Notes: generated from the letters alone by a model not told the origin. A stretch of 51,338 bases of DNA from Bifidobacteriaceae bacterium (GCA_031281585.1 JAITFE010000022.1:1-51338); one strand, 5' to 3'; shown: positions 12,012 to 41,716, counted from the stretch's first letter. Numbers and translations are program-made.

Positions 12012-13034
12012 ATGGAAAAGGTCCCCGGCACCACCCACACGCTCTGGCTTCTGTTGCTGGTGGCAGCAATAGCCGCAGTGGTCTTCTATTTCCGTTCGAA
12101 TAGGGAGGGGCACCGTCCCCTTCTTCCCCATCTCGGGATCAATACACCGCAAATCAAGAGCTTGACCGAATTCATAGCCGAGCGGGCTGTCGACTGGATT
12201 CGGGACTACGCCGCCGACCCCCAAATCCCGGTGCCCACCCTCTACACGCACGTTCTGGTAGATCCTGACCACGGGGCGGTGCTGCGATCGTCAAAACGCC
12301 AGGTCAACGAACGGCTCCACGACCTGATTCGCGACCTAGGCGACAAGGCGGCGGCACCGAGAGGGTCGACTTTCGCGGGAGCCGACGTCGTGGTGCTGGA
12401 GGTCTCAGACGGACCCGTGGGCACTAAGCCCGATGTGTACCTGTCAGCGGATCCGAGCCAGAGGCCCCGCTGGAACCGCGCGGGCAGCCCCGCCCGGCAG
12501 GTCGCCGCCGACGCGCCGCCGATGCCGTCGTTTCCGGCCTCGGAGAAGGTCGCGGACTCGGCGACAGGGACCGCGACCCCGGGCTTCGCCACCGCCTACT
12601 CCCCGCCTGCCCCGTCCCACGCCCCCAGCGCGGTCAGCACGCCGAACGATTCGGTCGGCATTGTCGTCACGTCTCCCCGCGTCAGGGCGTCCGAATCAAC
12701 CAACGGCCTTGTCACCGCAGTCGTGACCGAGCCTGGGCGGGAACCCGCCTGCTACACATTGGAGCCCGGCCGCACGGTACGTGTCGGCCGGTCGCCGGCC
12801 TGCGAAATCCCGGTTGCGGCTTACTACGCATCCCGCGATCACGCCGCGCTGACGCTGGAGGACGACGTGCTCACAGTCACCGACCACTCGAGCGGCGGCC
12901 TGTGGCTGGAGAGGAACGGCTCTGGCTGGGTCAAGCTCTCAGGAACATCCAGGCTGGCCCTGCCAATCCGCTTGTCCTGCGACTGCGATGGCGAGCTGGC
13001 GATCACCCTTGCACCGCTGTCTCACCGGCCATGA
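12012..13034 (+). CDS. Membrane-anchored FhaA-like FHA-domain protein; first gene of the nine-gene operon
   Basis: 340 aa, starting at an ATG with AAAGGA upstream (an in-frame start at 11964 lacks an RBS). One TM helix (residues about 10-27) is followed by a domain with VPTLYTHVLVDPDH and a paired-helix segment (about 45-150). This resembles the DUF3662 domain of mycobacterial FhaA. A Pro/Ala/Ser linker follows, then an FHA domain (about 245-325) with G259-R260, S274-R275 and H277, the usual phosphothreonine-binding positions. The Asn of the usual SxNG motif is replaced (SSGG). In actinobacteria FhaA/FhaB proteins are encoded with rodA, pbpA and pknA/B. Here the FHA gene overlaps a rodA-pbpA fusion by four bases (ATGA). 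The FHA call is confident; the DUF3662 likeness is tentative. Confidence 0.82.
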   Translation: MEKVPGTTHTLWLLLLVAAIAAVVFYFRSNREGHRPLLPHLGINTPQIKSLTEFIAERAVDWIRDYAADPQIPVPTLYTHVLVDPDHGAVLRSSKRQVNERLHDLIRDLGDKAAAPRGSTFAGADVVVLEVSDGPVGTKPDVYLSADPSQRPRWNRAGSPARQVAADAPPMPSFPASEKVADSATGTATPGFATAYSPPAPSHAPSAVSTPNDSVGIVVTSPRVRASESTNGLVTAVVTEPGREPACYTLEPGRTVRVGRSPACEIPVAAYYASRDHAALTLEDDVLTVTDHSSGGLWLERNGSGWVKLSGTSRLALPIRLSCDCDGELAITLAPLSHRP

Positions 13035-15838
13035 GTTCCAAGCAATCGATCTGGGGGCCGCCATTGGCCGCAGCGTTCGCGGGGTTCGCGGCCGCCGCCT
13101 CCCTGGCCGGGGCGGATGGTTCGTTGAGGGCCGGGTTTGGCATGCTCGTGGCGACGGGTGGCCTGGCGGTAGGAACCGTAGCGAGACCGTTCACCTACCA
13201 AGTCATCGCACTGTTCGGGGCCGGCGGAGCGACCGCTGGCCTTCAAACTCGTTTTGGCCACGATCTTGCCAAGGAAATCGTGATGTACGTGGCGGTGGCG
13301 CTGGTCGCCTGTGCCTGCGGCACAGGTGGCTGCCGCCTTGTGTGGAGGTCTCGAATAGACGATGGATCCTGGCGGATGAAAGTCGGCTGCACGCTGATCG
13401 CCGCCGCCACAGCGCTGCGGTTCGGGCTCGTGACGGCTCTGGCGCTGCCCTCGGGTTACCGATGGGACCGCATCAAGACAGGGTTCCTGCCGCTGCCCGT
13501 CGCGGGAGGCATTCAGGTTGGGGAGTTCACCCGGATCGCCTTGGTGGTTGGCGCGGCGCTGGTGGCGGGCGTGTTGGCCGCCGGGGGGCGATCTGGGCTC
13601 GGGAATCCCCTGCCGAAGGCGGCGACGCTGCTCTTCGCGGTCTACGTTGTCTGCGGAATGGCGCTGGACACCGGCCCGACCGCCATCACGCTCCTGGCGT
13701 GCGGTGTTGCGACCTGGACGGCTGTCCGCGCCCGTCAGCCCGCTGATTCCGAACCGCCAGGCCGCCGTCGAACGCGCTCCCCGCAACCGGTCGCTCTGAC
13801 CTTGACTGCGGCCGTGGTCGCGGCAGTCGGCATCGGAGCCGTAACGTCTTCAAGCACTGTCAGTGCGCGGCTCGCCGACTGGCGGGCCGCAGACCTGTCC
13901 ACCGCCACTTTGCAGACCCAGATGGCCCGCATCGCCGCCGCCGAGGGCGGACTGATCGGTCGGGGATGGGGGACCGGCGCTTTCGGGTCCGGCATATATG
14001 CGGCAGATTCCGACTACGCGCTCGCTTCGATCGCAGCCGACCTCGGCCTCCTGCCCGCCTTGGGGCTGGTGGCTCTGGTGTTGGTGGCGCTGGCTCAACT
14101 AGGTGCTGCCGGTCGAGTTCGAATGCGGGCGCAAACGGAAGCGGTCACCCGCGCATTAGCGGCTCTGAGCATCACATGGTTGTTGGTAGCGGCGCTGGGC
14201 GGCCTTGGGATTCTGCCACTTACTGGGATCAGCGCCCCGTTCTTGGTGCTCAAGGGATCCTCAATCATCTCCAGTGGGTTGCTGGTCGGCGTGATCGTTG
14301 GATTCGTCCAAGGAGACACTGGCCCGGCAACTGTCCGCCACCAGGCCTGGCGCGCGCCAGTCTGGGCCAGGACGGTGGCGGCCGGGCTGGTGGTCTACGG
14401 GATAGTCATGGCTTGCCTTACCCCAAGCCGGGGCGCTCTCGCAACCTACCGGCCAATCGGCGACCTGTTGGCGCGCGACGGATCAGTTGTCGCGACGACT
14501 GGCCCCGACGAATCGCGGACCTACCCAACGCAGAGCCTATACGCCGACCTGGGAGGCAGCATCTGGGTACAGTCAGATTCGGGGCGTCGCCTCTGGTCGC
14601 GTTATGGCCTGGAGACATCCCCTCTTCTGACATGCGGCAACGAACCCGATCTCAGCGACTGGTTGGCAACTGCCATACATCCGGTGCCGTGTTTGCCTGT
14701 CGACCTGGTGTCAACAATCAGCCCAATTGCGCAGACGGCCATCTCGCGAGCCATAGCCACGTCCGACCTGCGGCCCGGCCAAGTATCCGCTGCCTACGTT
14801 GACGCCACCAACGGCGAGATTCTCGGACTGTATTCAGGAGGGGTGGCGGATCCGAATTCTCTAGAAATCGATCCTGCGGCCCCGCCTCCCGCCCCATGGC
14901 CCGCCATTGACTCGTGGCGTCTCGCCACGCCGCCCGGTTCGGCCTTCAAGCCGCTGATCATGGCGGCGGCAGTGGACCTCGGGGTGCCCACGCCGAGTCG
15001 GGCGCTCGACAGACTGGTGACCGACCCGGAGACGGGCGAGGGGATGGTCAATGCCAGCGGCGCGCGGTGCCCGGACGGTTCGGTGGGCACCGCTTTGGCG
15101 GCCTCCTGCAACACGGTGGCGGCCGACTACGCCATCGCGGCGGGTGCCGGCCGCCTGGCCGATTACGTGAACACGCATTTCGGCGCAGACTCGGAGCTTT
15201 CATACGACGTCGCGGACGTTTCCGCCCGTCCGCGCCTAACCACGGGTTTGGGATCCCTGGCAACCGCGGACGGGAACACCTCTCCGGCGCTGGCGCGCAC
15301 GTCAATCGGGCAGGAGTCGGTCACCGCCAGCCCCCTGTCGTTGGCCGCCGCCTACGTGTCGTTGGTGCGGGGAACCGAGCATCCCGGCGAACCGGTGCCG
15401 TTGGCCCACCTCGCGGCAGGCGTATGCCAGGAAGGCAAGTACAGGGCCGTCAGCTGGGAACAGTTCGGCGCTAGCCCTTCGGCTGACGCATCGGCCCAGG
15501 TCCTGTCTGGGATGCGGTCTGCCATCACCGCCCCCTTCGGCACTGCGCGATCCCTAGTTCTGGGGCACCCCGAATTGAGCGGCCGCGACCTCGCCGCCAA
15601 GACAGGCACCGCCGAGGTGGCGACGGATGCCACCGGCACGGCCACAAGGGTGGACCGCTGGGCTGTCGCCGTTCTCGACTCCCGCTACGTGCTTGTGGTG
15701 AGGGTGCTAGACACTGCGGATAACACCGGCAACCCGGCTTTGGCGTTAGCCGGTAACATCTTGGCTGACACAGCGGCGATCGGCGAGTCGGTCGCCGCTT
15801 CCCCCGAATGCCCGGCGAACAGCCATTCCCCGGGATAG
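13031..15838 (+). CDS. RodA/FtsW (SEDS) glycan polymerase fused to a PbpA-type class B transpeptidase
   Basis: 935 aa with two peptidoglycan-synthesis enzymes in one chain. Residues 1 to about 455 are a polytopic SEDS domain of 10-12 helices. Its signature GLIGRGWGTGAFGSG...AADSDYALASIAADLGLLP places D328 at the catalytic Asp of SEDS enzymes, and ALGGLGILPLTGISAPF is the second conserved block. After one more helix comes a PbpA-like region (residues about 465 on; dG-like LLARDGSVVATTGP) and a transpeptidase with S637-A-F-K640, S692-C-N694 and K857-T-G. All three penicillin-binding motifs are intact, so both activities look functional. The parts are in the order rodA then pbpA, as in the standard actinobacterial operon, where they are separate genes. 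It starts inside the FHA stop codon. No frame break is seen across the junction. Confidence 0.92.
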   Translation: MSSKQSIWGPPLAAAFAGFAAAASLAGADGSLRAGFGMLVATGGLAVGTVARPFTYQVIALFGAGGATAGLQTRFGHDLAKEIVMYVAVALVACACGTGGCRLVWRSRIDDGSWRMKVGCTLIAAATALRFGLVTALALPSGYRWDRIKTGFLPLPVAGGIQVGEFTRIALVVGAALVAGVLAAGGRSGLGNPLPKAATLLFAVYVVCGMALDTGPTAITLLACGVATWTAVRARQPADSEPPGRRRTRSPQPVALTLTAAVVAAVGIGAVTSSSTVSARLADWRAADLSTATLQTQMARIAAAEGGLIGRGWGTGAFGSGIYAADSDYALASIAADLGLLPALGLVALVLVALAQLGAAGRVRMRAQTEAVTRALAALSITWLLVAALGGLGILPLTGISAPFLVLKGSSIISSGLLVGVIVGFVQGDTGPATVRHQAWRAPVWARTVAAGLVVYGIVMACLTPSRGALATYRPIGDLLARDGSVVATTGPDESRTYPTQSLYADLGGSIWVQSDSGRRLWSRYGLETSPLLTCGNEPDLSDWLATAIHPVPCLPVDLVSTISPIAQTAISRAIATSDLRPGQVSAAYVDATNGEILGLYSGGVADPNSLEIDPAAPPPAPWPAIDSWRLATPPGSAFKPLIMAAAVDLGVPTPSRALDRLVTDPETGEGMVNASGARCPDGSVGTALAASCNTVAADYAIAAGAGRLADYVNTHFGADSELSYDVADVSARPRLTTGLGSLATADGNTSPALARTSIGQESVTASPLSLAAAYVSLVRGTEHPGEPVPLAHLAAGVCQEGKYRAVSWEQFGASPSADASAQVLSGMRSAITAPFGTARSLVLGHPELSGRDLAAKTGTAEVATDATGTATRVDRWAVAVLDSRYVLVVRVLDTADNTGNPALALAGNILADTAAIGESVAASPECPANSHSPG

Positions 15839-15855
15839 CTCTGAAAGGCGCAGCG

Positions 15856-16911
15856 ATGTCCGGCCAAGATCGCCCAGCGGTCAACCTGGTGTTTCGTCTT
15901 GGCCGCGACCCCGCCCCCCGCGGCGCGCCCGAGCCAGTCAGGATTCCGTGGTCCGCAAACGGCGGGACCATCCGTGTTGGACGCCTGGCCACGCCCGCAG
16001 AGGACGCGGTGCCGCTCCTCCCCCCCGTCCAGTCCCTGGTGACAAGCAACCCCACACGCTTCCTGCGTCTTCTGGACCGAAAGACTATGGAAAACGTCCC
16101 TCGCCGTCTGCTCGGTCTCCGCGTGGTTGCAACTCGATCCGGCCACTGGGTCGAGGTGTGCGCGGCTTTCAGCAACCAAAACGAATGGGAAGCCCGCTTA
16201 ACCACGTCCCTGGGCGACAAAACTTTGGATTCGGACCCAAGTGCGGACGTTTGGTATCGGTTTCCGCCCGGCGCGTCGGTCAAAGTGTACGGATCCAAGA
16301 CACTAACTGACGCCGAAGGCGTCGACACATCAGTCTTGGAGGTAGAGAACGTCTCCCCGTTTGGCATCGGAGCGGGCCAGCCCCCCATTCTAACGGCGGG
16401 TGTGGCGGACAGACTGCGACCGCCCACTAAGAGGGCGATCGACCACGCGGAAGACTTCGACAACGAGTCCGGCCGCCTCACCAGACCGAAGGTGTCCTTG
16501 GCGGTGCTGGCGGCCGCCCACCGCATCGCGGCAGACACATCCAACCGCGCCACGGCCGGTGAACTGCGGACGGTCTTGGAAAACGGACCCGTCCCGGCCT
16601 GTCATTCTCGAAGGCAGTTGGAGCGGACAAGTTCGGTGCTTGGCTGGATATCGGAGCGGATACCCCGGTCTGAACTCAGTGCAGACGTGGAGACCCTGAC
16701 AGGGCTCGTCCTCGACGAGCCACAGATCGCGCAATGGGCTAGGTCACCTCAAGAGCACGGCTGGACAGGCCCGAAACTCGCTCGCCACATTGGCATGCTG
16801 GCGGCCCAGGCCGGCCTGATCGAACCGTCATTGGTCGAACACTGCGAACAACAGTTACTTGGCGCCCTGGCTGAGCTTCACGCAGCCGAACCAAAAGTCC
16901 CCCGCCAATGA
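15856..16911 (+). CDS. Unknown protein with a possible degenerate FHA-like N-terminal domain
   Basis: 351 aa, starting at the ATG after GAAAGG (longer in-frame starts lie inside the upstream gene). No family is recognised with confidence. The first 180 residues look beta-rich and contain GGTIRVGRLA, reminiscent of the first strands of an FHA fold, but the SxxH motif is not evident. The rest is helical (RPKVSLAVLAAAHRIAAD..., LARHIGMLAAQAGLIEPSLVEHCEQQLLGAL) and may be an adaptor or dimerisation region. No signal peptide or TM helix is present, so it should be cytoplasmic. It lies 17 bp after the SEDS-PBP gene and overlaps the kinase-like gene by four bases, so it is part of the same operon. 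Confidence 0.75.
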   Translation: MSGQDRPAVNLVFRLGRDPAPRGAPEPVRIPWSANGGTIRVGRLATPAEDAVPLLPPVQSLVTSNPTRFLRLLDRKTMENVPRRLLGLRVVATRSGHWVEVCAAFSNQNEWEARLTTSLGDKTLDSDPSADVWYRFPPGASVKVYGSKTLTDAEGVDTSVLEVENVSPFGIGAGQPPILTAGVADRLRPPTKRAIDHAEDFDNESGRLTRPKVSLAVLAAAHRIAADTSNRATAGELRTVLENGPVPACHSRRQLERTSSVLGWISERIPRSELSADVETLTGLVLDEPQIAQWARSPQEHGWTGPKLARHIGMLAAQAGLIEPSLVEHCEQQLLGALAELHAAEPKVPRQ

Positions 16912-17996
16912 ACCCTCTGCCCGCTGGCGCCATTCAGCCAGGCAAGTCATTCACTGTGGCCGACTATGAACTCGCAGGTTGTACCGGCACGTTGACAGGT
17001 CAACCTCTTTCTCCTTGGAATGCTGCCGACCCCCGCTCGAGGATCTGGGAAGTCGAAATAACCCTGCCCAACGGCCAGCGCCTCGACCAAGCACGCACAC
17101 CAGTACTCGCCAAGATCGTCTCTATCCTCTCCTGGGATACGCACGGGGAGGCGGCCGCTTTCCAAGCGGCTTTCGAGTCCCGTCAGAATGGTTGGTCCGC
17201 GCCGCGCCATCTTGAGATCTGCCTCGGGAAAAGCTCAATCGGCAACAACACGGCGTTCATCGTCCGCCGGTACGGTCCCACCGTGGCGGACCTAATGGAT
17301 CAGATCAACCAAGGCGCAGACCCCATCGACAACCGCACGGCCCTTGCAAGGGCCGTGCTGTGGTCGGGGACCCAGGCAGTGACAGAACTCAACCGGATAG
17401 AAAAGGGGATCCACCGGGACATCCACATCTCCAATATCTGTCAAATCGAACCCGCGGGCACCAGAACCCTGGGAATGGACGACTTGGTTCTGATCGACAT
17501 GGGAAGGGCGTACGGGGACGCGATGAGGCAATCGGGCTTTTCGGAAGGGACGAATGTGGGGGTTCCCGCTCTTCACGTTCCCTACCTTCTGCAGATTTCG
17601 CATACCCCAACGCTCACCTCCGAAATCGGATCGGTCGCGATCGCCGCGCACGTCGTAGCCTCCGGCGGCGCCAGTCCATACTACGAGATCAGTTCAGGTG
17701 ACCATCTGCAGATCCCGGACCTCAAGTTGGAATCCCGCCCGAACCGGGCACAACTGCGCGCCAGCTACGGATTCAAGGCTGACCACTCTGCGATGGCGGG
17801 GCTGGTATCCCCTGACTTTCGGGATCATCTGGGCCAGTTGATCGACGCGTTTGCCTTGGAATCTGGGTTGCCGGCGCTTGGCGACTTGCTCGCTCTAATC
17901 GGCATCCTCACCGGCCAAGACGCCATGCGCCTAAAGAAGGATTTGGGGCAACCGTCGGACTCCCTCCGGACGCCCCCAAGGCACGGCGATGTCTAG
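16908..17996 (+). CDS. Divergent protein-kinase-fold protein
   Basis: 362 aa. A kinase catalytic core can be traced: K69 in VLAKIV (beta-3 lysine), E81 or E90 as the helix-C glutamate, H169-R170-D171 in GIHRDIHISNI with N176, and D197-M-G in LVLIDMGRA replacing DFG. Main catalytic residues are therefore kept. The glycine-rich loop, however, is unclear, and a normal activation segment and C-lobe (APE motif, substrate helices) are not recognisable. It may be an active atypical kinase, a phosphotransferase of aminoglycoside-kinase type, or a pseudokinase. No TM helix follows, unlike PknA/PknB. Its position after FHA and SEDS-PBP genes suggests the FHA protein reads its phosphorylation. Confidence 0.7.
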   Translation: MNPLPAGAIQPGKSFTVADYELAGCTGTLTGQPLSPWNAADPRSRIWEVEITLPNGQRLDQARTPVLAKIVSILSWDTHGEAAAFQAAFESRQNGWSAPRHLEICLGKSSIGNNTAFIVRRYGPTVADLMDQINQGADPIDNRTALARAVLWSGTQAVTELNRIEKGIHRDIHISNICQIEPAGTRTLGMDDLVLIDMGRAYGDAMRQSGFSEGTNVGVPALHVPYLLQISHTPTLTSEIGSVAIAAHVVASGGASPYYEISSGDHLQIPDLKLESRPNRAQLRASYGFKADHSAMAGLVSPDFRDHLGQLIDAFALESGLPALGDLLALIGILTGQDAMRLKKDLGQPSDSLRTPPRHGDV

Positions 17997-20226
17997 CCGA
18001 GAACCGGGAAGGCTGTCAAACCAGGAGTTCCTTGACGCCGTCAAGGAACAACTCGCGCGGCCTGGGGTGCCATCGGTTCCCGTCCGGCCGTCCGACGCCG
18101 AGCCTAACCGGCCATCGCATGCCCCCCAGCGAATGCGGCGATTCGTGGAAGCCCCAGCTGTCCCCGGCGAATCTCACCAGCCGCACCCAAAGGTCGGCGA
18201 ACCCGTGCCAAGAGGGCGAGAGGCAAGAGGTGGAACGCCTTCTCCGCCCGAGGTTCCACATGAGTCTCTTGGGCCGCCTGTCGGCGACAAGGACGAGACA
18301 GCAGGGCCGAAGGCTCCCGCTCAACGCTCTACCCAACGGCCCACCGTGCTGCTCTCGTTGTCGCCAACAGTTGTGCTTCTCGCGCTGGTCCTTGGGCTGG
18401 ATCACACGGGTGCCGGTCCCCGTGCGCTTGAGTTGCTGGCTAGTTGGCCGCTGCCGGGTGGAACGGGATTCTGGCGGTGCCTCGCGACCCTGGTGTTCAT
18501 CGGCGTCGGGATGATGCTCGCACTCGGCGCTGGCTACAGCCTCGCCAAAGATGAGCACCTGAGGCGGACATTCTGGCTGGTGGTAACGCCAGCCTTAGCG
18601 GCCGCTCTCGCGCTGGTGCTGTTCCTGGGCTGGGCGCGGCTCGGCAGCCTGATCGCTCCCTGGCCCCAGAACCCCTATTTTGCACCTGACCCGGCACTGT
18701 CAGGACTCAAGTTCATCGCGCTTCCAAGCCTGGGTGCCGGAATCAAGTGGGTCCTGGTGTGGCTTTGGCTGGCCGTCCCGTCAGGCCTCGCCTGGGCGGT
18801 CGCTGAATTGGCCGGAATAAAGCCGCGGTTCGCTGGGCTCGTGGCTTTCTTGGCCTCGACGGTGATCGTGGCAGCCGCATGGATTAGCAGCATTTGGACC
18901 GAGGGGCGGCTCCCCACTGGATTCATGGTGGGCGCAGCGGCTTGTTGCGCTGTGTACTCATTTTGGGACGTTATGTCGAAGAGGAAGTCGACGCCGACCG
19001 GAGTGCGCCTGATCACGTTCGTGCTCTTAGGTCCGTTCTACATCATCCTGGCGGCTGGGATCCTGGCGGGATCGGTGGGGCAAATTGGCTCGCTGCCGTA
19101 CGCAGAAGCGGCCGGCTGCGCCGAAGGAGACATCCAGTTCGGCCCCGCATGCATCGAGCCGACAAAGGATTGGGTGCGAGCAACCGCAGAACAACTGGCG
19201 GAAGACCCTCTCCTCGAAGAACTTGGCCTGCGTGATGTGCGGCAGTTGACCAGCGAGGACTTCAAGGAGGCCACCGGGCTTACCACCGTCGTGTTCAAGC
19301 TGAAGAACCATCCCGAGGCCACGGTCTATGTCGCCTCGGGGCAAGCCCCGCTGTTCTATCCCGACTACGCCCCGCCGAAGGCCTGGACCGAAATCTACGC
19401 GGACGCCGCCACTGATAGGCAGCAGCTATCAGAGTCGATCGCTGCGCGGGCCTTCTATGAGGCTGCCGACTCGTCTGACAGAGCACCTTTCCAGGCCGGG
19501 GCCCACGTCAAGCTGGGCGGCAACGTTTGGTTCGATCAGTCCACCAATCTGCGGGTCCTAAATGGGACAGCCAGCCAACTTCGGCGCCTTGTGCTCCGGC
19601 AAGGCGAGACCTGCGGCCTCAAGACCACGTCCTGCGCGAGTAGCACCATGGTTTACGCCCATCTTGCGGTGCGGAGCGCCAGCCCCGCCCAGATGGACGC
19701 GATCAACCGCCAGGCCGAACGGCTGTTAGCTGGAGTCACGGCCAAGAATCTGAGTACCCTGGACCAAGCCTGGATAGCCCGCGATGTTGACGCCATCAAG
19801 GCTGCGGGTCTAGACCCGGGATTGCTCACAGTACCGGTCTCCGCAGACACACCGCCTTTCCCTCCGTTTGAGCTTCCCGAGGGAGCTCTGGCCCGGACCG
19901 ACCTCAGCCTCGGCACCCGCGCAGACAACTATTTGTCCATCAACTTGCGTCTCTCGGATTCCGACAGTGTGATCTCTACCGCTTGCGAGACCCGAGACTG
20001 GGTGCCAGGCGTCCGTGGTTGGTGCCAATGGGAGCAGTGGGCGCTGGGCGAGGAGTCAGAATGGTACCAAGCTTGGTATTTCCACGACTTCGAGGGCGGA
20101 AGCAGCCGCGCTCAGGCCACTGCGGGAATCCACTCCAAGAGCGACGTCGCTCCGGACCAGAAGATCGTGGACAGTATTCTGGGCGAGATCAGACTCAAAG
20201 GACTCATTGATGCGGGAATTGACTAG
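17989..20226 (+). CDS. Polytopic membrane protein with a large extracytoplasmic C-terminal domain, unknown
   Basis: 745 aa, overlapping the kinase-like gene by eight bases. An N-terminal cytoplasmic region of about 115 residues is Pro/Arg-rich and probably disordered. About seven TM helices follow (roughly residues 118-365). The last 380 residues should then lie outside, starting near AAGCAEGDIQFGPACIEP, with four to six cysteines able to form disulfides (CAEGDIQFGPAC, CGLKTTSC, CETRDWVPGVRGWC). No family is recognised. It could be a surface sensor or scaffold for the SEDS-PBP and GTPase proteins. By eye its codon use is less strictly GC-biased than that of the murJ or ppk regions, as in the neighbouring operon genes. 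Confidence 0.8.
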   Translation: MSSREPGRLSNQEFLDAVKEQLARPGVPSVPVRPSDAEPNRPSHAPQRMRRFVEAPAVPGESHQPHPKVGEPVPRGREARGGTPSPPEVPHESLGPPVGDKDETAGPKAPAQRSTQRPTVLLSLSPTVVLLALVLGLDHTGAGPRALELLASWPLPGGTGFWRCLATLVFIGVGMMLALGAGYSLAKDEHLRRTFWLVVTPALAAALALVLFLGWARLGSLIAPWPQNPYFAPDPALSGLKFIALPSLGAGIKWVLVWLWLAVPSGLAWAVAELAGIKPRFAGLVAFLASTVIVAAAWISSIWTEGRLPTGFMVGAAACCAVYSFWDVMSKRKSTPTGVRLITFVLLGPFYIILAAGILAGSVGQIGSLPYAEAAGCAEGDIQFGPACIEPTKDWVRATAEQLAEDPLLEELGLRDVRQLTSEDFKEATGLTTVVFKLKNHPEATVYVASGQAPLFYPDYAPPKAWTEIYADAATDRQQLSESIAARAFYEAADSSDRAPFQAGAHVKLGGNVWFDQSTNLRVLNGTASQLRRLVLRQGETCGLKTTSCASSTMVYAHLAVRSASPAQMDAINRQAERLLAGVTAKNLSTLDQAWIARDVDAIKAAGLDPGLLTVPVSADTPPFPPFELPEGALARTDLSLGTRADNYLSINLRLSDSDSVISTACETRDWVPGVRGWCQWEQWALGEESEWYQAWYFHDFEGGSSRAQATAGIHSKSDVAPDQKIVDSILGEIRLKGLIDAGID

Positions 20227-21280
20227 GTGTCCCCACTGCACGCTGCCGGTTGACGTCGCGGCAGGCCTCAATGTCAACTGGATTGGGCTTGACGGCTCCG
20301 TTTACGCCACACGGCCCGATCCCATTGAGACCCCCACCCGTCCTCACTGCTCCAACGAGCGCGCTGGAGACCCGTGCGGTGCCCAGTTGGTCGAGGGACC
20401 CGCGCTTCTGGCCCTCATCGTGGGTTCGCACCGGTCCGGCAAGTCCAGCTTGGTTTGGGGGTTCCGCGAGCACCAGCGCAGTTTCCCGTTTGGCCCGTGG
20501 ACTTTTCACATCGACGACGCCGCCGAGGAGACCTGGAGGGCAGTTTTCCGGTCGCGGGAGGCCACTCCGCGTCCAGAGAGAGGCCCGGCCCGCGCCAGCA
20601 TTTACGCGATTACCGAGCCCGAAACCGGCAGGCGCGCCTCGTTGATGCTGTGGGACTTGGCCGGAGAGATGTTCGAGACGGTCAACGAAGTTCTGGCGCA
20701 GCCCTTCGTGCCATTCCTCGACCTGGTGATCATCACTGTGCCGCCGAGCGACCTATCCGTCCGCACGGATCCGGAAACTGACGCAAGGACGGGCGGCCGT
20801 GATTCGCAAGGCGCGTACGCCCAGTGGCTCGCGACGCTCAACAGCCGGTTCAAGTCCATCGACAAGCCGCGTTTGGTCGTGCTGGCCCTGACCAAGTGCG
20901 ACGTGTACAAGGGACCAGACGGCTTTCCCCACGAATGCCTTAACCCTCGGTACCGGTTCGCCCGCGCGGCACCGCCAGGACAAGCCACCAATCGGCAGAA
21001 CGTAGACGCCTTGCGCGCCCAGTGGGAAAGAGAAAGCCTGCTTCTCTTCGAATTCATGAGGGGTGCCGGCGCCGAGGGCATCGCGTCGGTCACTTCTCAG
21101 TTTTGCCCCGACTACCAAATCGTGGCGGTGTCTGGAACCCGCAAGGAGGAGGAACCTCCGCCAGAACGCCCGGAAGCCGCAGTACCTGCTCTGGCTGGCG
21201 CGCCCGACAGAGCGGGAGACCCGTTCGCCATGGCTCTATGGATGCACGGTTGGGGAGCCGATTTGGAGAAACAGCCATGA
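20210..21280 (+). CDS. TRAFAC-type GTPase with N-terminal zinc finger (DO-GTPase2-like)
   Basis: 356 aa. The ATG follows AAAGGA by seven bases and lies 17 bases inside the preceding gene. C7, C10, C47 and C56 could bind one zinc ion. The nucleotide-binding motifs are G72-SHRS-G-K-S79 (P-loop), D149-L-A-G (DxxG) and T228-KCD231 (TKxD guanine specificity), so it should bind GTP and switch conformation. The layout and the following GAP1-like gene resemble the GTPase called DO-GTPase2 in surveys of NTP-dependent conflict systems; that match is from memory. The C-terminal 40 residues are Pro/Glu-rich. No membrane segment is present, so it probably acts on the cytoplasmic face of the partner membrane proteins. 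Confidence 0.85.
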   Translation: MRELTRCPHCTLPVDVAAGLNVNWIGLDGSVYATRPDPIETPTRPHCSNERAGDPCGAQLVEGPALLALIVGSHRSGKSSLVWGFREHQRSFPFGPWTFHIDDAAEETWRAVFRSREATPRPERGPARASIYAITEPETGRRASLMLWDLAGEMFETVNEVLAQPFVPFLDLVIITVPPSDLSVRTDPETDARTGGRDSQGAYAQWLATLNSRFKSIDKPRLVVLALTKCDVYKGPDGFPHECLNPRYRFARAAPPGQATNRQNVDALRAQWERESLLLFEFMRGAGAEGIASVTSQFCPDYQIVAVSGTRKEEEPPPERPEAAVPALAGAPDRAGDPFAMALWMHGWGADLEKQP

Positions 21281-23229
21281 CCGCAATGCCACCCACCCGA
21301 CCCGGCTTTGAACAAGCTGTCTATTCATCCGCCACCTCCGGACTCTCGGGAGAGGCCGGTTTTGGCCTTGTGGCGACCAGTCCCGGCTGGGGTTTCACCG
21401 ACGTCCCTGGCGGCGACCACGAGCTTCGGCGCCTGATCGGATTCGGCGCGAAGCGACGAGATCCGCGCGGCAGTGGCTTTTGGGCGTTCGACTTTCACCC
21501 TAAGCACCCTTGGGGGTCCGTCATCGTGGTGAAACGCCCGGCCGGAGACGACGCCAACGGCCGGCCCGGTAATTATGAAGCCCGCCTGCTCGTGGACTCT
21601 TCCGGCACCCTGACTCCGTCCGAAGCGGTGGCGGTGGCCGCCCGTGTGGCCGAAGGCACAGAGGTCTGGCAGCCCACCATGTCTGCTACCCGCGGACTCG
21701 AGCCAGTCAACTGGCAACCGGGCGAAGAGCAGTTCGAGCCACGGATGGTGGAGGCTTTCGTGTTGGGTGGTCTATTCGACGCGCTCGACCAGGGTAAGGG
21801 ACTCGTTGTTACCGCGTCGGCCGAGGAATCGGTCGAGTTACTCGCCGGAATCGTTCGAAGTCTTCCCTGGCGGCTGGCGGCTGGCTTGTCCCTATCGTCC
21901 TACATCGACAATCCGCAAGCAGCGCAACGTTCCGGCATAGCCATTTTGGTGCCAGAAGTGGAGCCCTTGCGCCCCCCATGGTTTGAGGCACAGCCGCTCA
22001 TTGCCGCAGACCGCGAAGCAAGCCTGCTCTACCCGCCCCAATCGGATGGTTCGACCGGTGCCACCCTACTAGCTGACTTGGCAACCGCCCGCTTCTGGAG
22101 CCCAAACGACTCGAACGCCTCGACCATCGACGAGTTGATCGCCGAGGTGCGGGAGAGCATCTATTTCAACCGTCCGAGCGCGGAACTCTCAGACGCCGAG
22201 TTGGTTGATCAGACGGCTGGGCTGAGCGATCGCCCAGCCCAAAGGCAGGCAGAGCTCGTCCGGGAAACTGCCGACCGCATAGCCGAGGGACGCTTCGGGG
22301 CGACCAACCCGTGGCAAAGATTCGACCCCCGCATCCGGAACCTCCTGCTGACTGCCTTGAAAGAGGCTTGGCAGGGTGCGCTCTCAGTCCTGGATCCTGT
22401 CATGGCGACCAACTTGCTGAGGCCAATGATCGAGTTGGGGACCCCCCCTCAAGATCTGGCACGAGAAGCCGCCTCCATACTGTCCCAACCCGCTGCGCCA
22501 ATCACATCAGCGACTTCTCCGCTCGAGACATGGGTTGTGGCGCAGGCCGAGGCCGCGCCACTCACGGCGTGGCTGGGTTGGGGCTCTGCTGCCTGGCGGC
22601 ATTCGGCGCTTCTGGCCAGACCAGCACTCAGACAGGACCTGATCAAAACGACGCTTCGGCATCCCGGTCAAATTGAGGACTGGCGTGCGGCCTCAGATGC
22701 CCTGCGCCGCCTCTTGGCCGAAGGCGCCGCCGATGAGTTGCTCCTGACTTGGCTGGCGCCCGACCGTTCAAGCTTTTCGGGCACCCCCGACAGCTCCGTC
22801 GCCGTGGACCAAGCCAGCTTTCACGTGTCGGCGCTGCTAAACGCCCTGCGGCACTTGGACGAGGACGTGGCGTTGAGCGTCCTCAGCCGAGCATTGGCCG
22901 GTGCCCAGCCCGCCATCCCTGGGCCCCACGGCCGCCCGGCACCGGTCGACGCGCCTCGTGTGGATGAGCGCGTGAATTGGCACCAGACGCCTCGACCGGG
23001 AGGTGCGGAGCAACGGCATCAGCCCCAGAAGCCTGACTCCCCGGCAACAGAAGAGAAAGCCCGGCGCTGCGCTTTGGGAGCGCTGCTTGGAAGCATGCTG
23101 ACAAGAAAACGCAACCGCCGACTTCAGAAAGAGGCAGATGCGGAAAGTGACCAAGCGATTGACGCCAAACGCCAACCGATCGAAGAAGCTGCTCCTGGAC
23201 TAGACGTCAGCGAGGCCCCTGATGGCTAG
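21277..23229 (+). CDS. GTPase-associated protein 1 (GAP1)-like protein
   Basis: 650 aa, starting within the GTPase stop codon (ATGA) after GGAG. The N-terminus reads FEQAVYSSATSGLSGEAGFGLVATSPG, close to the 'YTS..GL.G..GFQ..A.SPG' opening of GAP1 proteins. Further in, WRLAAGLSLSSYIDNP fits the conserved 'lSF.TY..nP' block. The middle is helical, and the C-terminal 60 residues are basic and charged (KRNRRLQKEADAESDQ), perhaps contacting membrane or nucleic acid. GAP1 proteins are predicted partners or effectors of the GTPase encoded beside them; the biochemical activity is not known to me. The pairing of these two genes, rather than either motif alone, supports the call. Confidence 0.72.
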   Translation: MTAMPPTRPGFEQAVYSSATSGLSGEAGFGLVATSPGWGFTDVPGGDHELRRLIGFGAKRRDPRGSGFWAFDFHPKHPWGSVIVVKRPAGDDANGRPGNYEARLLVDSSGTLTPSEAVAVAARVAEGTEVWQPTMSATRGLEPVNWQPGEEQFEPRMVEAFVLGGLFDALDQGKGLVVTASAEESVELLAGIVRSLPWRLAAGLSLSSYIDNPQAAQRSGIAILVPEVEPLRPPWFEAQPLIAADREASLLYPPQSDGSTGATLLADLATARFWSPNDSNASTIDELIAEVRESIYFNRPSAELSDAELVDQTAGLSDRPAQRQAELVRETADRIAEGRFGATNPWQRFDPRIRNLLLTALKEAWQGALSVLDPVMATNLLRPMIELGTPPQDLAREAASILSQPAAPITSATSPLETWVVAQAEAAPLTAWLGWGSAAWRHSALLARPALRQDLIKTTLRHPGQIEDWRAASDALRRLLAEGAADELLLTWLAPDRSSFSGTPDSSVAVDQASFHVSALLNALRHLDEDVALSVLSRALAGAQPAIPGPHGRPAPVDAPRVDERVNWHQTPRPGGAEQRHQPQKPDSPATEEKARRCALGALLGSMLTRKRNRRLQKEADAESDQAIDAKRQPIEEAAPGLDVSEAPDG

Positions 23230-23824
23230 CGCCGGCAAAGGCCGCCGAATCATCGGTGCTGTGTTCGTTGCGTTTGCCGGTGCACAAGCGTGGGTGCTGG
23301 GTCTGAGTTGGGCGGCAGAGCCCGAAAGACCCCTCCAATTTGCGGCAGCACCGCTGCTCACCGTCAATACCACGGCCGAGGTCCGGCCCCAGGGCGCGGA
23401 AGACGGCTGGGAAGAAATCCTCGACCTGGAGGAAGGTCGTTGGGTGGACTTCCGGCTGCGAGTCGAGAACACAGGCGACGAGCCGCTGACCGGGCTGCGT
23501 ATCAGGGCCACGTTGAGCGATTCCCTCTCTGGCGACCGCGAGCCGACAATGGTGCTGTCTACAGCCAAAGATTCGCCCAAGGACGTAAAGCGCGACCAAT
23601 TTCTCGCCATAGACGGCTGGCCCATGCCGACCGTGCCGGCCAAGGGCTCTGTCACCGTCATCCTCTCCGCTGAGTTGGACCCTCCGGGATTCGGTGAGGA
23701 CTCCGAATGCGAGCCGCAGTTGCACCATTTCCGAGCCGCGGTCGGCCCCCCAGCCGACCCGAGACAGATCACCGCAGCTGAGCAGGTGGCAGTCGGAACA
23801 GTGAGAGCCCTATGCCAATCATGA
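23222..23824 (+). CDS. Secreted or membrane-anchored beta-sandwich protein, unknown
   Basis: 200 aa, overlapping the GAP1-like gene by eight bases. The N-terminus is a signal sequence or anchor (KGRRIIGAVFVAFAGAQAWVL). The exported part contains WVDFRLRVENTGDEPLTGLRIRATLSD, the pattern of the DUF11/CARDB-like beta-sandwich domains found in actinobacterial surface proteins. Two cysteines lie near the C-terminus. It probably forms an external part of the complex encoded by this operon; no precise function can be given. Confidence 0.75.
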   Translation: MASAGKGRRIIGAVFVAFAGAQAWVLGLSWAAEPERPLQFAAAPLLTVNTTAEVRPQGAEDGWEEILDLEEGRWVDFRLRVENTGDEPLTGLRIRATLSDSLSGDREPTMVLSTAKDSPKDVKRDQFLAIDGWPMPTVPAKGSVTVILSAELDPPGFGEDSECEPQLHHFRAAVGPPADPRQITAAEQVAVGTVRALCQS

Positions 23825-23852
23825 CCGCAAGACCGGGGAGGATGATCCCATC

Positions 23853-24836
23853 GTGAAGGGTTCCTTTGCGGCGGCCCTCTTGCCTTGGGCAAGGTCCCTG
23901 AACCCGGAATCTAGAATTGTGGGCGTCTGGCGCTTGGCCGCCGCGACTGAGGATCACTCCGAAAGGAAGTCGACGGTGCGGTTCTTCCCGGACGGCACCT
24001 TCAAGGAAACTGAACGCGGACTACCTACCCATCGTGGCCGCTGGTGGATTGATGCCGAGGGACAAGGACATGGTGACTTTCGCGTGGAGATGGCCGGGCC
24101 CGTTAAGGCCGAGTGGCTGTACCCCCTTCCGTGGCACCAGCGGAGATTGCCCCAAGACCCTTTGGTTTGGCTGCTCCTAGTCGCCATCGTCGCTTTGAGC
24201 GTACTCGGCACAATGCTCCCAGGAGGCCTTTACGGCCACCTGGCCGATTCGGCCACAACCCGTGCGCTCGATTCAGCGGGTCCCTCAGCGGCAGCAATTG
24301 CTGCCGAGCAGTCCGCGCCGGCGGCGGGCGAGTGCCTATCGGTCTACCCGATGGAGCTTCATGACGAGCCGCCGGAAGACTGGCGCGACTCCACAGTGGC
24401 CTGCGACTCGACCAACGCCAACGTACGCATCGTGGACGTGTTCATGGGGGGGCAGACGGTGCCGAAATGCGATACCGACGCAACCGGATGCATGAGATTC
24501 GTGGACGCGGGGCAGACTTTCCACTTCAACGCCATTCCGCAACTGGGCCAATGCTTCTTCGGTTGGCGTTGGGATTCGGGCGGCTATTCCTGGCCCATAC
24601 GCCCGATGCGATGCGGGACCGAGCCACCCGACTGGGTGCTTTCCCCAAGCGAGGAGTGGGCTGCGGAACACGGAACCACAGTCTCTGACGGTCACCTCAC
24701 CGAATGGACAACCGAGGCCGTCCTGGCCGCTGACGGCACCTGCCCGGAGGGAATGTCGTACTGGACTGTCGATTTCTCCGAGACCGAGACAACTAAGGTC
24801 TGCGGATCCGGAAAACCGGTCGACGCCGCCGAGTGA
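23853..24836 (+). CDS. Single-pass membrane protein with lipocalin-like inner and Cys-rich outer (LppU-like) domains
   Basis: 327 aa, GTG start with GGGGAGG about 11 bases upstream; last gene of the operon, 28 bp after the previous one. Residues 15-95 (RIVGVWRLAAATE...VRFFPDGTFKE...GRWWIDA) look like a small lipocalin/META-type barrel on the inside. A TM helix spans about residues 108-128. The outer part has paired cysteines (GECLSVYP, VACDSTNANVRIVDVF, PKCDTDATGC, GQCFFGWRW, MRCG, GTCPEG, KVCGSG). This resembles the LppU/SCO3897 family or the septum-formation domain of actinobacterial lipoproteins, with moderate certainty. It may be the surface-exposed end of the system. Confidence 0.72.
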   Translation: MKGSFAAALLPWARSLNPESRIVGVWRLAAATEDHSERKSTVRFFPDGTFKETERGLPTHRGRWWIDAEGQGHGDFRVEMAGPVKAEWLYPLPWHQRRLPQDPLVWLLLVAIVALSVLGTMLPGGLYGHLADSATTRALDSAGPSAAAIAAEQSAPAAGECLSVYPMELHDEPPEDWRDSTVACDSTNANVRIVDVFMGGQTVPKCDTDATGCMRFVDAGQTFHFNAIPQLGQCFFGWRWDSGGYSWPIRPMRCGTEPPDWVLSPSEEWAAEHGTTVSDGHLTEWTTEAVLAADGTCPEGMSYWTVDFSETETTKVCGSGKPVDAAE

Positions 24837-24966
24837 TCGCGCCAGGAAACTGCCCGACACACTGTGGCGGATAGGCGTGGGGGATGGACCTGCCGTCCGA
24901 AGGCACCGATATCCACGACCGGAGCGGCAGCACCGGCGGCAGTTCCCGCCGCACTGCGCTGCGGAT

Positions 24967-25146
24967 GGCGCGTTGCGGGGCGAGCCGGATTATGACCGGT
25001 CAGCGGTCGACCGGCTGACCTCGGCATTCGACTTGATAGACATCAGCCAGCAAGTGATCGACGAGACGATCAAGCTGCGCCCGTTCCTGAAGGCCCTTGA
25101 CTCGGTCCACCTCGCGACCGCCCAGGCTAACGGCTTGGCCCTTCTC
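24967..25146 (+). pseudogene. Remnant of a VapC-type PIN-domain toxin gene
   Basis: An open frame holds LTSAFDLIDISQQVIDETIKLRPFLKALDSVHLATAQ (split here: the C-terminal half of a VapC PIN domain, with the conserved LDSVHLATAQ helix that carries a catalytic Asp). The N-terminal half with the first acidic residues, and a VapB antitoxin, are missing. Downstream the frame runs into REP-like hairpins. It is therefore a decayed fragment, evidence of past gene turnover at the end of the nine-gene operon. The rest of 24837-25415 contains no intact gene. Confidence 0.65.
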
Positions 25147-25200
25147 TTGCCCCGAAAGCAGCTGGCGGGGCCTGCCCCAGCGGGCCTCCGCCTGGCCGCC

Positions 25201-25267
25201 GGGAACCGTTCCCCGCACCCAAACGACAAGGTCCTTCCCCGCTGTCCAGGCGGAAGGACCGTCCCCG
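25201..25267. repeat. REP-like palindromic element
   Basis: GGGAAC-C-GTTCCC (25201-25213) is followed by GGTCCTTCC (25230-25238) pairing with GGAAGGACC (25252-25260), then GTCCCCG. The 14-mer AAGGACCGTCCCCG at 25254-25267 is found inverted at 11187-11200. Elements of this GGACCGTCCCC type are often dispersed and moved by REP-associated Y1 transposases (RAYT). No such transposase is in this window. Confidence 0.55.
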
Positions 25268-25343
25268 GCAACCCGGCAAGTCCGCTGGCCCGGTGCCCAA
25301 GAAAAGCCTGTCCCAACTGCAGGGGCGGGCCCTGGCGTGGGCC

Positions 25344-25401
25344 GGAAATGGGGACGGTACCTTTTTCCGGCTCGCCGGAAAAAGGTACCGTCCCCATTTC
25401 C
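25344..25401. repeat. Near-perfect 28-bp-stem palindrome (possible bidirectional terminator or REP element)
   Basis: Arms 25344-25371 and 25374-25401 are exact reverse complements, with only two bases between them. The core is GGGGACGGTACCTTTTTCCGG and its mirror copy. It lies 14 bp downstream of the ddl-like stop (minus strand) and after the plus-strand operon, so it could terminate transcription from both sides. Its similarity to the hairpins at 25201-25267 and 11173-11200 points to a REP-type mobile origin. Confidence 0.8.
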
Positions 25402-25415
25402 ATTTCCCCGACCAG

Positions 25416-26360
25416 TTACCCCGCAGCTATTGAGGCTTCCGCCAAGGCGCGGTAGAGGGCGGGCAAGTGGTGGCCGGCCGCCAGGGCGGCCTGGGGGAGC
25501 AAGGACGTTTCCTGCATGCCCGGGGCCACGTTGACCTCCAGGAACCACGGCACGCCGGCGGCGTCCACGATCATGTCGGTTCGGGAGATCCTGGTCAGGC
25601 CCAGAACCTCGTGGGCCGCCAGGGCCAAAGCCGCCGCCGCGCCAGCGACACCCGAATCAACGCGGGCCGGGGTGAAGAACTCCGTGCGGCCCGGGTTGTA
25701 GCGGGCGTCGTAGTCGTAAGGCCCGTCGGTGACGATCTCCACCGCGGGCAGCGCCACCGGCCCGGACCCAAGGTCGATCACCGACACGGCCAATTCCGTC
25801 CCGGCCACCGACCGCTCGATCAGCGCGACCTCCCCGTACGCGAAGCAGTCCATCATGGCGCGGGGCAGGTCCGCCGGATCGACCACCTGCGTGACCCCCA
25901 GCGCCGAGCCGCCGTGCAGCGGCTTGACCACCAAGTCGGTCCCCAGCGAAGACGCCACCAGGTCCAACAGCGGGGCTGCGCCCAATTCCCGGAACAGCGA
26001 CTGCGGGAACGTGACGTAGTCCGGCGTGGCCAGCCCCGCCCGGCGGATGATGGTCTTGGCGACCGCCTTGTTCCAGGCCGCGCGGGCCGCCCTGGGGTCT
26101 GACCCCAGATACGGCACGCCCGCCAACTCCAGCACGTCCCGCACCGAGCCGTCCTCCCCCAGCGCGCCGTGCAGCAGCGGCCACACCAGGTCGAAGTCCG
26201 CGCCCGCCAGCCGATCCATCAGCCGGGCGTCCAGGTCCGCCTCGACAACGCCGCAGCCCGCCTCCCGCAGCGCCTCCGCGACCCGCCGTCCCGACCGCAG
26301 CGACACGTCGCGTTCATGCGACAAGCCGCCCGCCAGTATCAACACCTTCGGGTTGGCCAT
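25416..26360 (-). CDS. D-alanine--D-alanine ligase family protein (ATP-grasp)
   Basis: 314 aa, ATG with AAGGAG eight bases upstream. Ddl motifs are present: LAGGLSHERDVSLRSG at the N-terminus (Glu and Ser of the D-Ala site), LVVKPLHGGSALGV (ATP-binding Lys and the loop), and FLEVNVAPGMQETSLLPQ at the C-terminus (metal-binding Glu/Asn). It should join two D-alanines for the peptidoglycan stem peptide in the cytoplasm. It is shorter than E. coli Ddl. A main ddl gene may lie elsewhere, so this could be a paralogue with another D-amino or hydroxy acid substrate. It is the last gene of a minus-strand run trxB-trxA-aminotransferase-ddl; in related actinobacteria it often lies beside parB. Confidence 0.85.
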   Translation of the reverse strand: MANPKVLILAGGLSHERDVSLRSGRRVAEALREAGCGVVEADLDARLMDRLAGADFDLVWPLLHGALGEDGSVRDVLELAGVPYLGSDPRAARAAWNKAVAKTIIRRAGLATPDYVTFPQSLFRELGAAPLLDLVASSLGTDLVVKPLHGGSALGVTQVVDPADLPRAMMDCFAYGEVALIERSVAGTELAVSVIDLGSGPVALPAVEIVTDGPYDYDARYNPGRTEFFTPARVDSGVAGAAAALALAAHEVLGLTRISRTDMIVDAAGVPWFLEVNVAPGMQETSLLPQAALAAGHHLPALYRALAEASIAAG

Positions 26361-34699: not shown

Positions 34700-36631
34700 T
34701 CAACCATGCTCACCAGCCGAGGCGGGCCGGCGCAGGCGCGCGAGGAGCGGGCGCGCGAAATCCGCCAACTGGGTCACTCCCAACAGGCGCAGCAGACCGA
34801 CATAGGACACGGTGATGAGGAGGCCCACCACCACCAGGGCCGCCAGCGAGGTGGCCAGGCTGGCCGCGCCACCGCCGGGGAACAGGCTCAGCGCCAGCCA
34901 GCCAACCTCAGCGCTGAGGCACGCGGCGGCGCCCGCCCGCAGGTGCATCCATCCCAGTTCGCGGCCGTCAATCCCGTCCAGCCGGTCCCGCAACGAGGAA
35001 AGGCGGAGAATAGCGCCGGCTAGGAAGGAGAGGGTCTGCCCCAGGCCAATCCCCGTCACCCACCACGCGGGCGGCAGCAACCAGAAGCTCACCAGCGAAA
35101 AGCCCGCGAACAACAACGACATGGGGATCTGCAGGGCCAACAGCGTGCGGCCGTCTTCCAGCGCGAAGAAAACCCGTTTCACCAACAGGGTCATGCCCAG
35201 CGGGACCAGCCCCAACGACATGGCCACCACCGGCCCCACCAGGGCACCCACCTCCGGCAGGCTGATGCCCGGTTGCAGGACGCGCCCCAGCGGCAACGCC
35301 AACACCACCAGCAGGGCGGTGAACAGGAAACTGAACGCGCTGGTGGTCATGATCGCGTAGGACAGGTCCTGCCGGACCAGTTTCAAGGCCCCCGCCTGCA
35401 CGTGTTCGCTCATGCGGGTGAACAAGGCCGTGGTCAAAGAAACCGTGATCAACGAATGGGGAATGATGTAGATGCTCAGGGCCAAAGTCAGGATCGCGTT
35501 CGAGGCGACCGTCTGACCAGGCGCGGCGTCCTGAGCGGCCGAGGCCAGCCGGATCGCCACCCACATTGCGCCCTGGCTGAACACCAAAGACAGCGCCGTC
35601 CAGCCGGTCATCCGCGCCGCCCGGCCCAGCCCAAAGCCGCGAAAACCCCAGCGCCAACGGGGGCGCAGCCCCAACCGGGCCATTGGGCCGACCAGGATCA
35701 GGGCTTGGACAGCTATCCCCAACGTGGCGGTTCCGGCCAGCAGCAGGGTCTGGCCAGTCCCCCACCAGGCGGCCGAGGCTTGGCCCGCCGCCGGTCCCGC
35801 TCCCCCAGCCCCAGCAGACACCGCGTGGTAGCGGCCGAAGGCGGCGATGAACACCCCGAAGCCGAGAATCGAGACCGCGTTGTTGGCCACCGGCGCCCAC
35901 ATCACCACCCCGAACACGTTGCGGGCGTTGAGCACCTGGCTCCAGAGGAGATAAATGCCGTAAAAGAAGACTTGCGGCAGACACCAATACGCGAACACCG
36001 TGCCCAGCCCAAGCTTTTGCGCGTCCCAGTCCTGGGTGAACAGAGTCAGCCAGAACCCGGCCGAGACGGTCAGCAACACGGTCAAGGCGCCCAGCAGCAC
36101 CGTCGCCAGCGTGAGAAGCCGATGCACAAACTCCTCGCCCTGGCCCCGGCCAAAAGCCCGCACGATCTGCGGCACCAAGACCGCGTTGAGCACGCCCTCG
36201 GCCAAGATGGCGTAAAAGAAGTTCGGCAGGGTGTTGGCGGCGTCGAAGGCGTTGGCGGCCATGGTGCCGACGCCGATCGCCCCGCCCAGGACGGCGGCCC
36301 GCACCATTCCCGCCACCCGCGAGGCGGCCGTGCCGGACGCCATCGCCAAAGTCGAGCGCCCAATCGAAGGCGCCGCCGCCATGGGCTCCCGTTCGTTTCC
36401 CGCCGGAGACTGATCAACGGCACCCCGTGGCGCGGCCCGCGCGCCGGAAGCGCCGGGAAGACCGGAACGGGGCGAAACCGGTGAATTGGGAGCGCCGGTT
36501 GGCTCGCTCGCGCCGGCCGAACCCTTCCGGCCACGCCGCCCCGGCTTGGCGGGCTGGGCCGGCCGGTGGCTTTGCGCCCAGCGCCGAGCCGGGCGGGCGA
36601 CCGAGGGGCGGTCCGGCGGCGGTTCACTCAC
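34700..36631 (-). CDS. murJ: Lipid II flippase MurJ
   Basis: 643 aa. The GTG at 36631 overlaps the stop of the upstream gene (GTGA), with GGGAGG about ten bases before it. An N-terminal cytoplasmic extension of about 105 Arg/Pro-rich residues precedes roughly 14 TM helices. MOP-superfamily MurJ traits are the early SRVAGMVRAAVLG segment, FFYAILAEGVLNAVLVPQ, the FYGIYLLWSQVLNARNVF loop and SIYIIPHSLITVSLTTALF. It flips lipid-linked peptidoglycan precursor to the outer face. Unlike mycobacterial MviN it has no fused pseudokinase. It is translationally coupled to the DUF6049 gene. Confidence 0.94.
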   Translation of the reverse strand: MSEPPPDRPSVARPARRWAQSHRPAQPAKPGRRGRKGSAGASEPTGAPNSPVSPRSGLPGASGARAAPRGAVDQSPAGNEREPMAAAPSIGRSTLAMASGTAASRVAGMVRAAVLGGAIGVGTMAANAFDAANTLPNFFYAILAEGVLNAVLVPQIVRAFGRGQGEEFVHRLLTLATVLLGALTVLLTVSAGFWLTLFTQDWDAQKLGLGTVFAYWCLPQVFFYGIYLLWSQVLNARNVFGVVMWAPVANNAVSILGFGVFIAAFGRYHAVSAGAGGAGPAAGQASAAWWGTGQTLLLAGTATLGIAVQALILVGPMARLGLRPRWRWGFRGFGLGRAARMTGWTALSLVFSQGAMWVAIRLASAAQDAAPGQTVASNAILTLALSIYIIPHSLITVSLTTALFTRMSEHVQAGALKLVRQDLSYAIMTTSAFSFLFTALLVVLALPLGRVLQPGISLPEVGALVGPVVAMSLGLVPLGMTLLVKRVFFALEDGRTLLALQIPMSLLFAGFSLVSFWLLPPAWWVTGIGLGQTLSFLAGAILRLSSLRDRLDGIDGRELGWMHLRAGAAACLSAEVGWLALSLFPGGGAASLATSLAALVVVGLLITVSYVGLLRLLGVTQLADFARPLLARLRRPASAGEHG

Positions 36632-41628: not shown

Positions 41629-41716
41629 GCAGGCTTTCGCGCCCCGAGTCCAAGCCCGGGCCGGGCGCGGGCGCTGCGTCCCCGCTAGCGGGCGGGCTCG
41701 AATAGGCTTTGTTGCC

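Follow-up and report, generated by a model that had tools for sequence, protein, structure and literature searches.

Several described systems resemble parts of the locus reported here, which is a single-chain fusion of a SEDS protein and a class B penicillin-binding protein (PBP), together with its operon, in a 51,338-nucleotide stretch from a Bifidobacteriaceae bacterium (GCA_031281585.1, JAITFE010000022.1:1-51338; "the window" denotes this whole stretch). Single open reading frames coding for a SEDS-PBP fusion exist, with the genome of Rhodococcus RHA1 cited as a source (PMC10449877). Systems of DO-GTPases and GTPase-associated protein 1 of the N2 type (GAP1-N2) have been proposed to be membrane-proximal conflict systems with variable effectors. 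About one tenth of these contain kinases together with PP2C and vWA, and no SEDS, RodA, FtsW or transpeptidase component is named in the main text of that study (PMC7159879).

A natural SEDS-PBP fusion as such has therefore already been reported and is no novelty in itself. An earlier reading made from the sequence alone (the sequence-only reading) had presented it as new; this claim does not hold, and many more such frames were found here. The most unusual feature of the locus is the cassette of GTPase, GAP1-N2, FHA and kinase-like genes around the fusion, which that reading did not mention. A wall synthase inside a mobile-looking GTPase system is a variant not found described in the literature searched, and a literature search for a link of FtsW, PbpA, PP2C or FHA with mobile elements found none.

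The fused frame and its operon

The fusion occupies one uninterrupted frame, from an ATG at 13031 to a stop codon ending at 15838. Its layout is as follows.

13031-15838, + strand: SEDS-class B PBP single-chain fusion, 935 amino acids (aa), by Pfam, motifs and hydropathy
Residues ~1-435: SEDS half
Residues ~436-466: linker and transmembrane (TM) helix
Residues ~470-925: putative PbpA-type pedestal, and transpeptidase

Both domains are recognised by Pfam within the one open frame, as the sequence-only reading had proposed: FTSW_RODA_SPOVE in residues 262-423 (3.3e-11; 43.2 bits against a cut-off of 26.4) and Transpeptidase in residues 586-907 (4.8e-19). Neither a class A PBP glycosyltransferase nor any other domain beyond these two was called in the frame by Pfam; the PbpA-type pedestal, PBP_dimer_2, was not called in the window fusion but was called in a homologue from Herbiconiux at 1e-6. 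The motifs D328, S637xxK640, S692-C-N694 and K857-T-G859 stand at exactly the positions given in that reading and align with the motifs of the host RodA, FtsW, PbpA and FtsI. D328 is aligned with the aspartate at the catalytic position of host RodA and FtsW, in the fourth periplasmic loop, and its equivalent in Escherichia coli RodA, Asp262, is catalytic (PMC10449877). Q162 and E165 of the QPxE motif, as well as D213, are retained in the diverged SEDS half. The PBP half carries KTGTAE as in PbpA, where host FtsI has KTGTSQ, and by this motif it is of the PbpA type.

One TM helix, at about residues 448-466 by hydropathy, separates the last SEDS helix from the PBP part, which agrees with the single helix described earlier; the fixed 1:1 pairing of the two enzymes, also noted then, is true by construction. 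No start codon with an obvious ribosome-binding site was seen near the joint, and the G+C content of third codon positions (GC3) is steady across it, with values of 0.745 and 0.764 for the two halves. A single-sequence AlphaFold model of the fusion has a pLDDT of 39 and supports no structural conclusion. Compared with the RodA-PBP2/RodA-PbpA synthase (6pl5, 8tj3 and relatives), the same enzyme families, catalytic aspartate, SxxK/SxN/KTG motifs and KTGTAE are found; however, the window protein is fused and very diverged, and its host already has a separate RodA and PbpA.

The genome of the window contains 3 SEDS genes and 6 transpeptidase domains. The separate rodA and pbpA genes, for which the earlier reading had suggested a search, lie adjacent to each other on contig C158, and ftsW and ftsI on contig C125. 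With these genes present outside the cassette, the housekeeping RodA-PbpA of the cell was rejected as an identity for the fusion. Thus, the RodA-PbpA assignment of the sequence-only reading stands for the type of the PBP half and fails as a description of the cell's own pair. In trees, the fusion is placed outside the clades of host RodA and host PbpA. It was found in none of the 17 other genomes of the host's family, and no further single-frame fusion was detected in 396 sampled genomes of the host's order, where the remaining matches contain stops and represent adjacent rodA-pbpA genes. The window fusion is an extra, fast-evolving, sporadic copy.

The fusion is the second of nine co-directional genes. 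The whole cassette and the other eight members are listed below.

12012-24836, + strand: whole cassette, nine co-directional genes with overlaps mostly of 4-17 bases, also marked by its GC3
12012-13034, + strand: membrane-anchored FHA-domain protein, 340 aa, first operon gene (Pfam FHA 3.1e-6)
15856-16911, + strand: protein of 351 aa with no Pfam family
16908-17996, + strand: kinase-like protein, 362 aa, with HRD-x4-N and D-M-G motifs read from the sequence
17989-20226, + strand: multi-TM protein, 745 aa, with an extracytoplasmic C-terminal region, read from the sequence
20210-21280, + strand: DO-GTPase2 with a Cys-rich (zinc-ribbon-like) N-terminus and P-loop (Pfam DO-GTPase2 2.1e-6, over the cut-off)
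21277-23229, + strand: GAP1 of the N2 type (Pfam GAP1-N2 9.2e-6, over the cut-off)
23222-23824, + strand: small protein, 200 aa, with an N-terminal signal or TM segment and a beta-rich extracytoplasmic part, read from the sequence (DUF11 weak, below the cut-off)
23853-24836, + strand: single-TM protein, 327 aa, with no family assigned, last likely operon gene (sequence; GC3 0.716)

All nine genes have a GC3 of 0.69-0.79, compared with 0.81-0.91 in 16 flanking genes (Mann-Whitney p 5e-5), suggesting that the operon is probably foreign and horizontally acquired. The ATG of the fusion shares the bases ATGA (13031-13034) with the stop codon of the FHA gene directly upstream, a sign of translational coupling. 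DO-GTPase2 is followed by GAP1-N2 with an overlap of 4 bases, and the latter protein also contains GAP1-M at 4e-4, below the cut-off. Pfam detected no FNIII domain among the cassette proteins, even with hits up to E = 1 admitted, and no defence model was matched by PADLOC.

As in the third actinobacterial theme of the GAP1-N2 systems (PMC7159879), the cassette has a DO-GTPase with a Cys-rich N-terminus followed by GAP1-N2, TM proteins and a kinase-like protein; the PP2C that this theme includes is shared by the Herbiconiux relative. In contrast to those systems, the cassette adds FHA and a wall synthase, and FNIII and vWA were not found in it. The absence of FNIII makes the cassette a variant and not a typical member of the GAP1-N2 DO-GTPase systems. 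Likewise, the combination of FHA, phospho-signalling and a RodA-PbpA-type synthase recalls the actinobacterial growth operon fhaB-pstP-rodA-pbpA-pknB, whereas that operon belongs to the core chromosome and the cassette is mobile-looking and adds the DO-GTPase and GAP1.

Relatives of the cassette and other fusions

Homologues were sought by tblastn in 72,556 plasmid records, and the fusion was found to be encoded on Herbiconiux plasmids. The Herbiconiux fusion of 893 aa can be aligned with that of the window along 787 residues that span the joint (33% identity, E 2e-63). Full-length relatives are also present on two finished plasmids, pFiD188 of Rhodococcus fascians and pLW2 of Rhodococcus sp. 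LW-XY12. A sequencing or assembly error joining two frames, which had been named as a way in which the fusion could prove false, is ruled out because finished plasmids hold homologous fusions with the same joint. Scans of genome contigs with the fusion and with a two-sequence profile gave no matches, and no fusion relatives were found in viral contigs and phages.

The Herbiconiux plasmid cassette consists of NYN, the fusion, an unknown protein, PP2C, a kinase-like/TM protein, DO-GTPase2, GAP and FHA. Five of its proteins match those of the window: the fusion (2e-63), GTPase (4e-15), kinase-like protein (3e-7), GAP (2e-5) and FHA (4e-4). The kinase-like protein of the window matches the N-terminal part of its Herbiconiux counterpart, in which the kinase-like and TM parts form one chain. 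The 351-aa protein corresponds in position to a hypothetical protein of 387 aa after the Herbiconiux fusion, with no sequence similarity detected between the two. Used as a lone query, the window DO-GTPase2 matched only two Herbiconiux plasmids among the plasmid records. At a third locus (genome G089, locus L181), genes for DO-GTPase2 and for a kinase recognised by Pfam lie beside a related fusion; a GAP1-like position and a C-terminal TM mark the gene that separates the fusion from the GTPase. The Rhodococcus plasmid cassettes contain NYN, a DUF4407-kinase, PP2C, FHA and the fusion, and the GTPase is absent. No SEDS protein or transpeptidase is encoded at any of 24 further GAP1-N2 loci sampled from the class, for which about 10 kb to each side was inspected where the contig was long enough.

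An NYN nuclease gene opens all three plasmid cassettes (L065:12148-12621, L066:5700-6311, L067:8298-9071); in L065 and L067 it adjoins integrase or transposase genes.

The search for further fusions suggested with the sequence-only reading was productive, since in addition to the plasmid relatives a five-sequence profile run on 396 genomes of the phylum returned full-length fusions in a single frame by the dozen, clustered in four small-genome families of Actinomycetota. There the fusion is chromosomal and fixed per family, and every near-complete genome has it as its third SEDS. The only such locus annotated (L157) has FHA, PP2C, the fusion and a PASTA kinase in that order, and in another genome (L159) the same order is seen with SEDS and PBP as separate genes. 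Like these fusions and that of RHA1, the window protein has its SEDS part ahead of the class B PBP part, a single TM helix joining the two, and intact catalytic residues. In contrast to the fixed fusions of the small-genome families, with their FHA-PP2C-kinase growth operon, it is sporadic and located in a GTPase/GAP1 island.

Fusion appears to have occurred repeatedly. In G535 (L072) the genes are fused and in its sister L095 unfused, so the fusion there is probably independent. A further lineage, in which the SEDS is FtsW-like and the pedestal of the PBP_dimer type, was found in other families, one example being a plasmid of Rhodococcus pseudokoreensis. At least 3 fusion lineages exist besides that of the window, at least 4 altogether. 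In a concatenated tree, the fusions of the window, Herbiconiux, the two Rhodococcus plasmids and G089 stand together beyond a branch with 99/97 support that separates them from all other fusions, a grouping in which long branches limit trust. A single origin of the cassette fusions and those of the small-genome families was not rejected by the approximately unbiased test (p-AU 0.16); given the unfused sister genes and the FtsW-like lineage, several origins appear more likely than one. The repetition of SEDS-class B PBP fusion in at least four lineages implies that natural cells can tolerate a permanent pairing, and natural fusions offer handy single-chain subjects for the coupling of polymerisation and cross-linking.

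At four loci (L176:7613-8929, L177:10920-12215, L179:7406-8674, L180:11346-12608), the FtsW-like fusion is preceded by a conserved membrane protein some 430 aa long. It carries the motif LLSVATLTPAQAALLARDL or a close form, and the one copy scanned has no Pfam family. It may represent a partner, as yet without a name, of a fused wall synthase encoded on the chromosome.

Possible roles of the cassette

The account considered probable, with modest confidence, is that the cassette encodes a portable auxiliary wall synthase, gated by phosphorylation and a GTPase, in a horizontally acquired operon that is a variant of the GTPase-centric systems. The membrane-embedded SEDS half would polymerise lipid II, and the PbpA-type half would cross-link the new strands in the same chain. 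The retention of catalytic residues over a large divergence is the reason to take the fusion as an active polymerase and cross-linker. The kinase-like protein and FHA reader, with PP2C in the plasmid relatives, would form a phospho-signalling set, and DO-GTPase2 with GAP1-N2 a GTPase switch. Since these regulatory-type genes travel with the fusion, its activity may be gated. The predicted output would be local wall synthesis at the membrane upon an envelope or invader signal, with envelope repair or defence, separate from the housekeeping elongasome and divisome, as the best guess.

By likeness of gene sets, the chromosomal FHA-PP2C-RodA-PbpA-kinase growth operon is a plausible source of the fusion and its partners, in which case a GTPase/GAP1-N2 system would have taken up the synthase, fused, and the phospho-signalling set of that operon. 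A bolder form of this proposal, that a mobile GTPase/GAP1-N2 system captured and fused a complete wall enzyme of its own and, with kinase/FHA signalling, builds wall under attack instead of destroying, for instance to close or strengthen the envelope, is regarded as rather unlikely. If the GTPase and GAP1 do gate the synthase, this would point to a concrete enzymatic output for a large class of actinobacterial GTPase systems that experiments have hardly explored, and to a route for wall-synthesis control outside the elongasome and divisome.

Several observations weigh against the gated auxiliary synthase. The SEDS half is strongly diverged, most of all in its first half, with QPxE changed to QVGE and GGSS to KGSS, and the Pfam match covers the second half only (profile positions 186-348). 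The kinase-like protein is under the Pfam threshold, and its single-sequence AlphaFold model, with a pLDDT of 36, supports no conclusion on its fold. PP2C is absent from the cassette of the window. The few relatives of the cassette are distant and long-branched; the GAP candidate of G089 matches no family, and a GTPase with a recognisable GAP is present at two loci only. The proposed GTPase control of the synthase is drawn solely from gene neighbourhood. Also, a clean empty insertion site was not found, the island-facing side of Ddl being variable among siblings.

Three other explanations were considered. The fusion may be an ordinary one with supplementary growth or division work, beside which the GTPase and GAP1 genes are separate passengers of the island; fusions do recur independently and have become fixed as the third SEDS throughout entire families, where they sit in a growth operon, and the DO-GTPase is missing beside the fusion on the Rhodococcus plasmids. 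This explanation is nevertheless judged unlikely, as neighbouring genes of the cassette operon share 4-17 bases and the link of fusion and GTPase is seen at three loci in distant hosts.

An improbable alternative is a plasmid-borne replacement synthase giving tolerance to beta-lactams or other wall antibiotics, in the manner of acquired PBPs. An extra transpeptidase is indeed carried by mobile elements, and a relative in the fusion family has weak matches to PBPs of plasmids, among them PBP2M from corynebacterial plasmids. However, the fusion is of the PbpA type and not the low-affinity PBP type, the GTPase, GAP1, FHA and kinase-like genes would be left unexplained, and resistance PBPs usually lack a SEDS protein of their own. 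Equally doubtful is a toxic effector of a conflict system, whose runaway polymerisation would drain lipid II or mis-build the wall and halt the infected cell. The proposal of variable effectors for the DO-GTPase/GAP1-N2 systems (PMC7159879) and the NYN nuclease genes at the cassette edge in relatives favour such a role; the transpeptidase motifs, unneeded for draining lipid II, are nonetheless all intact, and the negative PADLOC result also counts against it.

Observations beside the cassette

At the right edge of the cassette, positions 24877-25455 may hold what is left of a PIN-domain (VapC-like) gene; the coding context there is poor. A perfect 20-bp inverted repeat (GGGGACGGTACCTTTTTCCGG...) is found at 25350-25395, just beyond the cassette. 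Sibling contigs also hold self-complementary stretches, and this repeat is perhaps a repeated intergenic element or terminator. Further along the window, a gene for a MurJ lipid II flippase was noted near genes for a CCA-adding-type polymerase and a Ser/Thr kinase (34700-36898, - strand; 41501-43174, + strand; 43557-45194, - strand). This cluster has the look of ordinary actinobacterial chromosome, and with it a further component of wall synthesis lies at a distance of about 10 kb from the cassette.

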